Below are positions 9,798-13,239 of a stretch of DNA of 64,000 bases, one piece after another. Source of the DNA: Candidatus Planktophila sp. (GTDB taxonomy: Bacteria > Actinomycetota > Actinomycetes > Nanopelagicales > Nanopelagicaceae); assembly GCA_021741905.1 (NCBI GenBank), contig JAIOWZ010000003.1, positions 1-64,000 of the forward strand, written 5' to 3'. Numbering within the stretch: position 1 is the stretch's first letter; the number at the start of each line of letters is the position of its first letter. Position numbers and translations under genes: made by a program. The notes beneath the pieces were generated by a model that made no database searches, was not told the DNA's origin, and saw only the letters and a program-made list of their open reading frames with translations.

Positions 9798-10754
9798 ATG
9801 AGCGCATTGTCACCAATAAATCGCGAGAGCGAGCTGCGCGCTGATGCCACAAAATTGGCCGAGCTCTGGAAGACGGCACAAATAATTCATCTAGTTGATG
9901 CTCGCTTGAGCGCGGGAGATGATTCACTGACCTTTATTGATGCGGCTGCTGTGGCTGCGGCTCAGGAAGTATTTGAAGAAGGTGATCGTTTTTTCTTAGG
10001 CGTGGGCCGAGATGATAACCAGGCTTACTTTGCTTGGCGCACAACCTGGATTAATCCTCCTGAAGATGATGGAACTGAACAGTTTGAACAGTGTAAGTAT
10101 GAAGGATTTAAGAGTTTGCGCCAAGTTGGTGGGCATTTAGATACTGATGAATTAGCGCTAGCCATGCACGCGGTTGGTTTAGCTAACTGGCATTGGACCC
10201 ACACACATTGTTCAAAGTGTGGAGCAAAGACAGTTAGCGATCTTGGTGGAAGTGTTCGTGTGTGTCCTGAAGATGCCACGCAACATCACCCACGGACAGA
10301 TCCGGCGGTAATTGTTTTGGTAAAAGATAAGGATGACCGCATTCTCTTGGGACATCAACCCGTATGGCCAGACAAGCGCTTTTCTACATTTGCAGGATTT
10401 GTGGAAACTGGCGAATCTTTTGAAGAGTGCGTTTCACGGGAAGTATTTGAAGAAGCTGGTGTTTATGCATCAGAGATCAAGTATTTAACTTCACAACCTT
10501 GGCCATTTCCTGCCTCGATCATGATTGCATTTGAGGCGATTACCCATCGTCCAGAAGAGGCTCGTCCTGATGGCACAGAGATAACTGAAGTACGCTGGTT
10601 TTCGCGTGATGAAATGAAGGCTGCTGTTGCCACCCAAGATATTTTGTTGCCACCAAAAATTTCAGTTGCTCGTCGCATGATCGAAGCTTGGTACACACGG
10701 GTTGATGGATATACACGAGATCAGTTGCGCGGTGGTGAATCGTGGAGACCGTAG
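9798..10754 (+). CDS. nudC: NAD(+) diphosphatase NudC-like (Nudix with zinc ribbon)
   Basis: HCSKCGAKT...CPEDATQHHPRTDPAVIVLV; Nudix box GFVETGESFEECVSREVFEEAGV. Confidence 0.9.
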   Translation: MSALSPINRESELRADATKLAELWKTAQIIHLVDARLSAGDDSLTFIDAAAVAAAQEVFEEGDRFFLGVGRDDNQAYFAWRTTWINPPEDDGTEQFEQCKYEGFKSLRQVGGHLDTDELALAMHAVGLANWHWTHTHCSKCGAKTVSDLGGSVRVCPEDATQHHPRTDPAVIVLVKDKDDRILLGHQPVWPDKRFSTFAGFVETGESFEECVSREVFEEAGVYASEIKYLTSQPWPFPASIMIAFEAITHRPEEARPDGTEITEVRWFSRDEMKAAVATQDILLPPKISVARRMIEAWYTRVDGYTRDQLRGGESWRP

Positions 10755-12421
10755 GAAACTTACGCGCAGAAGAGATTCTTGAAGCGCTAGATAATGAACA
10801 ACGCGCAGTTGCACTTGCTACACGTGGACCAGTTTGTGTAATTGCAGGGGCCGGAACTGGAAAAACCCGCGCAATTACACACCGCATCGCATACGCCGCA
10901 GCTATTGGCACCATGGATCCCCACAAAGTTTTAGCTCTTACATTTACGGCCCGTGCAGCCGGTGAAATGCGCACCCGACTTCGCTCACTTGGTGTTCCAT
11001 CTGTAGCTGCTCGAACAATCCACGCAGCAGCACTCAAGCAGTTAACCTTCTTTTGGCCACAGGTATTTGGTGGCCGCACACCTGATTTGCTCACTACCAA
11101 GAGTGGATTTTTAACTGAAGCGATCAAGCGCGCACAACTACAAGGCGAACTCTCCATCACATCCCGTGATTTACTGCGTGATATTGCAACAGAGATTGAG
11201 TGGGCCAAGGTTTCACAAATCGCACCTTCTAACTACTTAAGCGAATCCTTAAAGCGCACGGTCAAGCCGCGGATTAATCCTGAACAACTTGCCAAGATCT
11301 ATACGGCATATGAAAGCGTGAAGCACCAGGAGCGAGCAATTGATTTTGAGGATGTATTACTGCTAACTACTGCAATGATCGAAGAAGAGCGCGAAGTCCG
11401 AGAGCGTGTGCAAGATCAGTACCGATTCTTTACGGTTGATGAGTATCAGGATATTTCACCGCTGCAGCAGCGTTTAATTAATGCCTGGCTTGGATCACGA
11501 CAAGAGCTATGTGTTGTTGGTGATCCTGCACAAACAATTTACTCATTTGCCGGTGCCACACCGGTGTTTCTCAATTCATTCACACAACGTTTTCCAGAAG
11601 CTGAGATTGTGCGCCTAACAACTGGCTATCGATCTACACCTGAAATTATTTTTACCGCTAACAGCATTTTGCGAAAAGGTGCGATGGGCAATGAGTTAGT
11701 TGCAATCAATGATCACGGAAGCAAGCCAACCATTACTGCCTATAACGATGAGTCTGCAGAGATTGCAGGAATCGTTCGTGACATCACTCAGCTAATCTCC
11801 GAAGGAACACCTGCCCAAGAGATTGCAGTTCTTGCCCGTACTAATAGCCAATTAAATGGTTTAGAAAAAGCTATGAATTCTGCGAACCTGCCATACCAAG
11901 TTAGAAATACCGAGCGTTTCTTTGAACGTAAAGAGGTTCGTGATTTCTTAAAGCAGGTTCGGACAGCTTCGGTCATTCCTACCGAAGGTGTTGTTTGGTT
12001 AGATGAACTTCGGACTTTAGCTCAGCCATTTTTGACTGGGGGAGCAATTGATGGCATCGCAGCACTCATGCATCTTGCACGCGAATTAGATGGTGACTCT
12101 GGATTTACGCCAAAGAATCTGCGCGCATACCTACGCGAAGTTGAAGATCGCGTTCAGCAAAACAATCCACCAACTATGCCTGTCACAACTCTTGCCACTC
12201 TGCATGCAGCTAAAGGACTTGAATGGGATCGAGTATTTCTCATGGGTGTTAGCGATGGAATTTTGCCCCTTGAAAACAACAGCACTACTGGGGATCAAGC
12301 ATCAATTGATGAAGAACGCCGTTTGTTCTATGTTGGAATTACACGGGCTAAATCAGATCTACGATTGAGTTATCGAGGCAAGGCCTCACGATTCTTGGCC
12401 GAAGCGGGCCTTACTAACTAG
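10742..12421 (+). CDS. uvrD2: ATP-dependent DNA helicase UvrD2-like (short form)
   Basis: GAGTGKTRAITHRI, DEYQDISPLQ, GDPAQTIYSFAGA, LHAAKGLEWDRV, FYVGITRAKS; gene order nudC-uvrD2-whiB7 as in mycobacteria. Confidence 0.85.
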   Translation: METVGNLRAEEILEALDNEQRAVALATRGPVCVIAGAGTGKTRAITHRIAYAAAIGTMDPHKVLALTFTARAAGEMRTRLRSLGVPSVAARTIHAAALKQLTFFWPQVFGGRTPDLLTTKSGFLTEAIKRAQLQGELSITSRDLLRDIATEIEWAKVSQIAPSNYLSESLKRTVKPRINPEQLAKIYTAYESVKHQERAIDFEDVLLLTTAMIEEEREVRERVQDQYRFFTVDEYQDISPLQQRLINAWLGSRQELCVVGDPAQTIYSFAGATPVFLNSFTQRFPEAEIVRLTTGYRSTPEIIFTANSILRKGAMGNELVAINDHGSKPTITAYNDESAEIAGIVRDITQLISEGTPAQEIAVLARTNSQLNGLEKAMNSANLPYQVRNTERFFERKEVRDFLKQVRTASVIPTEGVVWLDELRTLAQPFLTGGAIDGIAALMHLARELDGDSGFTPKNLRAYLREVEDRVQQNNPPTMPVTTLATLHAAKGLEWDRVFLMGVSDGILPLENNSTTGDQASIDEERRLFYVGITRAKSDLRLSYRGKASRFLAEAGLTN

Positions 12422-12457
12422 TCGATTCACGCTCATTTATGCGAGGAATTAATTGCC

Positions 12458-12487
12458 TTGCCAGTACCTCAACCCATGGTTTATCCT
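12458..12487 (+). promoter_or_regulatory. Predicted whiB7 promoter (-35 TTGCCA, 18-bp spacer, -10 TATCCT)
   Basis: TTGCCA 12458-12463 and TATCCT 12482-12487; AT-rich aattaatt lies just upstream of the -35. Confidence 0.5.
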
Positions 12488-12536
12488 TATGACTGCATTC
12501 CCATGGCGGGTATGAAAATGAATGGAAGGAACGAAT

Positions 12537-12695
12537 ATGTCTAATGCATCATTCGTATCAGCAAACGCAATGCGTTCTGCTGTGATTCCTTCTGCTCATA
12601 CAACCAATAAGCCTTCTACTTGGCATGCGACGAAGCCAGCGTTTTACGCAGCTTTTTATGCCGGATACGAGGCCAATGGTGGTTCGATCGAATAA
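12537..12695 (+). CDS. whiB7 upstream leader ORF, 52 aa (MSNASFVSANAMRSAVIPSAHTTNKPSTWHATKPAFYAAFYAGYEANGGSIE); below the ORF-track cutoff
   Basis: ATG with purine-rich SD (GGAAGG) upstream; TAA about 23 nt before the terminator hairpin upstream of whiB7. Confidence 0.65.
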   Translation: MSNASFVSANAMRSAVIPSAHTTNKPSTWHATKPAFYAAFYAGYEANGGSIE

Positions 12696-12716
12696 CTCGA
12701 TTTAGAACTAAAAGCC

Positions 12717-12759
12717 AAGGGCCTCGAATCCAAAAGGATTCGGAGCCCTTTTTGTTTTT
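12717..12759 (+). terminator. Intrinsic terminator/attenuator in the whiB7 leader
   Basis: GGGCctCGAATCC-AAAA-GGATTCGgaGCCC followed by TTTTTGTTTTT; lies between uORF and whiB7. Confidence 0.85.
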
Positions 12760-12840
12760 CCAAAACAAACTTCACTCCAGAAAACCAACGACAACCACAA
12801 GAGACCGAAGCAAGATCTAACAGAAAGAAGAGGTGAGGAC

Positions 12841-13239
12841 ATGAGCGTTCTCTTCAGTGAACTACTGGTACCAGGCTGGGCAGATGAGAAGATCGGCTTG
12901 GATGCCGTAACAGGCACGTATTCAGATGGATCATCATTTAATTTGCCATGCCACACTGCAGATCCTGAGCTCTACTTTTCTGAGGATGAGATGCAAGTGC
13001 AAGAGGCCAAGTCACTCTGTGGCGGATGTCCTGTGCGTGCACAGTGTTTAGAAGGTGCGTTATCGCGCCAAGAGCCAGCAGGTGTATGGGGCGGTGAACT
13101 ATTTGAAGAAGGTCGCATCATTGCCAAGAAACGCAAAGCTGGACGACCAACTTTGAAAGAAATCGCTGCACGTAATGCAGAAGGCGAACTGATTGAACTC
13201 AACGTTAAAGGTGATGAGCGTGAGGAGAGTGCTGCATAA
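12841..13239 (+). CDS. whiB7: WhiB-family Fe-S transcription factor, WhiB7-like (C-terminal AT-hook)
   Basis: LPCHTADPELYF...EAKSLCGGCPVRAQCLEGALSRQEPAGVWGGELF four-Cys WhiB core; KKRKAGRPTLK AT-hook; downstream of uvrD2. Confidence 0.9.
   Translation: MSVLFSELLVPGWADEKIGLDAVTGTYSDGSSFNLPCHTADPELYFSEDEMQVQEAKSLCGGCPVRAQCLEGALSRQEPAGVWGGELFEEGRIIAKKRKAGRPTLKEIAARNAEGELIELNVKGDEREESAA

Follow-up and report, generated by a model that had tools for sequence, protein, structure and literature searches.

The window analysed here, a stretch of 64,000 nucleotides of Candidatus Planktophila DNA, carries on its forward strand a complete attenuation leader for the gene whiB7 (positions 12449-12840), in which an AT-rich box and a promoter with -35 and -10 elements are followed by an upstream open reading frame (uORF) of 52 codons led by a Shine-Dalgarno sequence (SD), by an intrinsic terminator and then by whiB7 itself. 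The best explanation of this arrangement, and a very probable one, is that it constitutes a ribosome-mediated transcription attenuator for WhiB7. An AT-rich promoter, an SD-led uORF, a terminator and whiB7 had each been proposed in a preliminary description made from the letters of the window, and all of them lie where they had been placed. The leader was recovered 118 times in the order Nanopelagicales (window included), from at least ten genera, and another 46 examples come from 23 further families of the class. A script located both uORF and terminator in 117 of the 118 analysable leaders, window included, and inspection found both in the 118th (L127), so that the conservation in relatives that the preliminary description had named as a check is present. 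That description had also viewed the leader as an extension of mycobacterial control to a streamlined, low-GC actinobacterium. The leader does exist in such a genome, but its distribution over 23 other families makes it a class-wide feature and not a mere extension of a mycobacterial trait. No Rfam family reached its gathering score in the leader region.

The whiB7 locus and its promoter

The host is a member of the acI / Nanopelagicales group with a Planktophila-like genome of 1.25 Mb in 44 contigs and a coding G+C of 46% (computed on the window ORFs), and near-identical whiB7 sequences occur in uncultured actinobacteria from fresh and brackish water, some of whose records carry the label Candidatus Planktophila or Nanopelagicaceae. 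The gene order at the locus is nudC, encoding NAD(+) diphosphatase (an NCBIfam equivalog call, above cut-off), a UvrD-like helicase gene (10742-12421, forward strand), the leader and whiB7. We tentatively assign the helicase gene to uvrD2 by its position and by synteny with M. tuberculosis, in which the order is nudC-uvrD2-whiB7.

The 132-amino-acid product of the gene at 12841-13239 (forward strand) is, as judged from its sequence, WhiB7 (WblC). It scores above the cut-off for the Pfam family Whib (PF02467), and its best match in the PDB is M. tuberculosis WhiB7 (7kif, E 3.7e-23), with the Wbl chains other than WhiB7 matching at 3e-11 or worse and WhiB1, WhiB3 and WhiB4 all far behind 7kif. 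The four Wbl cysteines and the G(V/I)WGG turn are present (LPCH...LCGGCPVRAQC and GVWGGELFE), and the C-terminal AT-hook KRKAGRPTLK, which aligns with KRPRGRPRK of the M. tuberculosis protein, keeps the GRP core, with Ala in place of the first Arg of RGRP. The WhiB core and AT-hook on which the preliminary identification had relied are thus borne out. No NCBIfam model matched the WhiB7 of the window. Ahead of the Wbl core, an N-terminal stretch (VLFSELLVPGW...; 12841-12942) is conserved in WhiB7 of the Nanopelagicales, the M. tuberculosis protein being shorter there, and the WhiB7 of genus g3 (L158) has about 45 extra residues in this position (here and below, the genus and family labels g1-g10, f4 and f17 are anonymous tool labels). 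Three more Wbl genes exist in the genome of the window besides whiB7. One related genome (G054) has two whiB7-like matches (L043 and L102) on separate contigs, one of them partial, and might be a mixed assembly.

The promoter of the leader (12458-12487, forward strand) has a -35 element TTGCCA (12458-12463) and a -10 element TATCCT (12482-12487) separated by 18 nt, and the box TTAATT (12449-12454) lies 3 bp upstream of the -35 element. Taken alone the promoter match is at chance level (3 promoter-like sites, as against 2.6 expected), so that its reality is decided by conservation across leaders. Among 116 leaders the box reads TTAATT in 80 and TTAATC in 8; a box followed by 3 nt and TTG...TANNNT is found in 101 of the 116, and the spacer measures 18 nt in every one of these 101. 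The same placement of an AT-rich box, 3 bp ahead of the -35 element, has been published for WhiB7 in M. abscessus (PMC10727445) and for WblC in S. coelicolor (PMC7157823), which agrees with the earlier comparison of the box to that of whiB7 autoregulation; the conserved box leads us to infer that this promoter, too, might be autoregulated by WhiB7. Transcription is predicted to start at ~12494, from the spacing of the -10 element only. The end of the -10 element lies 353 nt from whiB7 in the window and at a median of 349 nt in relatives; in mycobacteria whiB7 transcription starts ~350 nt upstream of the gene (PMC4128351). Near the predicted 5' end of the mRNA there is a small hairpin (12496-12514, forward strand), weak in the window (z -0.3), that recurs with differing sequences and has a median z of -1.6 over 86 SD-led leaders.

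Strict and one-mismatch searches for the box-promoter combination in the window's own genome and in relatives (14-19 genomes) recovered whiB7 and otherwise no excess over reversed-pattern controls. Such a result would fit either a very small regulon or further WhiB7 targets whose boxes match less closely. The only other match to the relaxed pattern in the window's own genome (L221, G000 C39:27664-27700) falls inside the reading frame of an apparently McrB-like ATPase and was taken to be due to chance.

The uORF and its control codons

The uORF runs from an ATG at 12537 to a TAA at 12695 on the forward strand (52 codons, MSNASFVSANAMRSAVIPSAHTTNKPSTWHATKPAFYAAFYAGYEANGGSIE) and is preceded by the SD GGAAGGA (12524-12530); most relatives within the genus also have an SD-like sequence here. 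Over 31 close sequences (window included), the median dN/dS of the uORF is 0.40, from pairs that are not independent, third-position differences outnumber second-position differences and there are no frameshifts. Such a pattern points to selection at the protein level and predicts that the uORF is translated. Its N-terminus and its length vary between genera, the latter from ~41 to 73 amino acids.

Within the uORF lies the control block PAFYAAFYA (codons 34-42, 12636-12662, forward strand), which ends directly before the first strand of the antiterminator discussed below. Its residues are identical in 31 of 31 sequences while synonymous changes occur at all nine codons, and this combination indicates selection on the amino acids themselves. 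Among 48 uORFs chosen to represent the order, Ala, Phe, Tyr and Trp make up 51% of codons 9-20 before the stop, as against 17% in the proteins of the window (33 ORFs as background), and Leu, Ile, Val and Met only 3%; the P value computed for this comparison takes no account of relatedness. The enrichment for Ala and aromatic residues exceeds the expectation from base composition and is confined to the reading frame. The sequence of the block differs between genera, with its Ala, Phe, Tyr and Trp composition kept. The same zone contains 16-18% Ala and 5-6% aromatic residues in other families of the class, and family f4, presumed to be Mycobacteriaceae, has runs of Ala in it. WhiB7 serves in the response of mycobacteria to alanine starvation, according to Poulton 2024 as cited in PMC10727445 and PMC13370626. 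We hypothesize that in the Nanopelagicales the sensor codons might specifically report Ala and aromatic residues.

The terminator, the antiterminator and the predicted switch

Between the uORF and whiB7 lies an intrinsic terminator, consisting of a hairpin (12717-12750, forward strand) and a U tract that extends to 12759. It has a folding energy of -24.5 kcal/mol (z -5.4) and is conserved in relatives; terminator-like sites number 6, as against 2.4 expected. The preliminary description made no mention of an antiterminator, the element that, in the modelled folds, turns what would be a plain terminator into a switch; nor did it mention the variants in sensor codons and the leaderless uORFs. The predicted antiterminator hairpin (12663-12731, forward strand; -33.5 kcal/mol) has as its outer strands 12663-12674 and 12720-12731, so that GGAT/CGAGGCC in the last uORF codons pairs with GGCCTCG/ATCC in the 5' arm of the terminator, and the 84 nt around it fold at -35 (z -6.1). 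Its apical loop of five bases, AUAAC (12692-12696, forward strand), holds the UAA stop of the uORF (12693-12695) on a stem that coevolves (p = 5e-5). The stop codon is enclosed by the predicted antiterminator, in the apical loop, in 117 of 117 leaders, as against 28% when the upstream sequence is shuffled. In the 46 leaders from the 23 other families, assessed by folding of the stretch and not by a duplex scan, the stop is enclosed in all 46 and strictly apical in 15. A simple-duplex scan for the antiterminator did not discriminate in the high-GC families (median z -0.3).

Loop indels break the helix register of a MAFFT alignment, and tests of own against swapped strands were used in place of pair counting. 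These used divergent representatives that differ in both strands, although some effect of relatedness remains in them. The antiterminator strand pairs better with its own terminator arm than with swapped ones (p = 5e-5, whether 14 or 18 representatives are used), as do the strands of the hairpin that holds the stop and the arms of the terminator (p = 5e-5 each), whereas control windows further upstream gave p values of 0.10-0.47. Sequence comparison thus shows the parts of the leader, their conservation and their coevolution, including that of the antiterminator with the terminator arm. Genus g2 has a weaker antiterminator, for which the own arm ranks below a swapped one. A candidate anti-antiterminator further upstream found no support in the same kind of test (p = 0.08).

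From these parts we infer the positions of the ribosome, the read-through, the inducers and the autoactivation in the following scheme. RNA polymerase would start at the WhiB7-box promoter and transcribe the uORF, the last codons of which could join the terminator's 5' arm in the antiterminator hairpin, with the uORF stop in its apical loop. In an unstressed cell the ribosome would reach this stop and open the antiterminator, whereupon the terminator would form and whiB7 would stay off. With a ribosome that is stalled in the uORF by an antibiotic or an uncharged tRNA, or that has not been loaded, the antiterminator would form first and whiB7 would be transcribed, and WhiB7 might then boost its own promoter. 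An ensemble calculation on the nascent RNA gives the antiterminator, for a ribosome-free or stalled transcript, a probability of 0.99 before the 3' arm of the terminator emerges, and gives the terminator a probability of 1.0 when a ribosome is modelled at the stop. For the whole leader at equilibrium the terminator is preferred (-95.7 kcal/mol versus -88.2 kcal/mol with the antiterminator enforced), and the switch must therefore be kinetic. Base 12663, the first after PAFYAAFYA, is also the first base of the antiterminator, which would make the block approximately the last place at which a stalled ribosome leaves the antiterminator strand free (assuming a footprint that reaches ~15 nt past the P site).

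The hairpin might instead do no more than end transcription of the helicase operon, the short ORF being incidental, as the helicase gene ends ~300 nt before it and is followed by no other terminator-like site ahead of whiB7; but the conserved promoter sits past the helicase gene and ahead of the uORF, the uORF is itself conserved (dN/dS 0.40) and the antiterminator coevolves with the terminator arm while enclosing the stop in every one of the 117 leaders, and we regard this explanation as highly improbable. No more credence can be given to the idea that the uORF serves to make a functional small protein, with the RNA structures secondary to it. Conservation of PAFYAAFYA as amino acids with free synonymous change is what such a protein would lead one to expect, but the N-terminal part and the length of the product vary widely between genera, and its C-terminal end is conserved where it coincides with the stems of the antiterminator, as TWSxIG* in many Nanopelagicales and as TWSPPV* in several other families.

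Another reading would keep the attenuator and change its trigger to a drug- or ligand-dependent arrest peptide, with PAFYAAFYA stalling the ribosome by way of the exit tunnel and not through codon hunger or generic drug stalling. The invariance at the peptide level, located at the precise point where a stalled ribosome would still free the antiterminator, fits this; however, the block differs between genera with its composition kept, which suits codon-specific sensing better than a single arrest motif, and we consider a trigger of this kind rather unlikely.

Known systems and possible lineage-specific variants

The mechanism of attenuation for whiB7/wblC has been published (PMC10727445, PMC11550727, PMC4128351), as have the antiterminator that overlaps uORF and terminator and the wide presence of the system in actinobacteria (PMC10727445). 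The leader of the window therefore adds one more case of a known system, possibly with two lineage-specific variants; among the papers searched, none names whiB7 together with Nanopelagic*. The window shares with the mycobacterial leader (PMC4128351, PMC10727445) a start ~350 nt upstream, an SD-led uORF followed by a terminator, an antiterminator made from overlapping uORF and terminator sequence and an AT-rich box placed 3 bp before the -35 element. It differs in that its uORF cannot be aligned with the mycobacterial one outside the Ala-rich zone, in that Phe, Tyr and Trp join Ala in the control zone and in the higher A+T content of its genome. The Streptomyces wblC leader, as Lee et al. 2022 is represented in PMC11550727, PMC7157823 and PMC12421871, likewise combines uORF attenuation that answers ribosome inhibitors and amino-acid starvation with an autoregulated promoter, and in the f17 leaders folded here (presumed Streptomyces) the stop is again enclosed by the antiterminator. 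The published WblC box consensus is GAAAWY (PMC7157823), however, compared with TTAATT here, and the f17 uORFs are longer (103-119 codons as called in three leaders). With the M. tuberculosis ilvB1 attenuator (PMC13236596) and the classical amino-acid attenuators the window shares control codons that immediately precede the antiterminator strand, and mutually exclusive antiterminator and terminator. Unlike those, it would control a resistance regulator and not a biosynthetic operon, would sense translation stress in general and has its stop codon in the apical loop of the antiterminator. This location of the stop would amount to a simple physical rule.

In several sister genera the uORF seems to be leaderless, as judged from start sites placed by the -10 element. 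An in-frame start 6-9 nt past the -10 element, without room for an SD, is found in all eight leaders of g6, all ten of g7 and the single one of g10, and also in five of nine in g4 (with GTG starts), in one g3 leader (L158) and in one from g1 (L087). The window's own genus otherwise has SD-led leaders, whose 5' UTR is roughly 40-50 nt long. We tentatively suggest, as a combination that is somewhat doubtful, that the switch has been retuned in two ways: by selection of the control codons for Ala and aromatic residues and against Leu, Ile, Val and Met as well as Asp and Glu, such that it might report the charging of Ala-, Phe-, Tyr- and Trp-tRNA (or arrest by such a peptide) besides ribosome inhibition, and by leaderless uORFs that in several genera might change which inhibitors of initiation are sensed. 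The control of whiB7 is usually framed as antibiotic resistance in mycobacteria and Streptomyces. The presence of the entire switch in all relatives checked, in one of the most abundant groups of freshwater bacteria and one with very small genomes, suggests that the sensing of stalled translation, perhaps under a shortage of amino acids as much as under antibiotics, is the trait that has been kept, and the SD-led and leaderless leaders offer a natural comparison. As a minor observation, about a dozen tandem copies of a AGCAGAAA-type repeat lie between terminator and whiB7 in leader L127.
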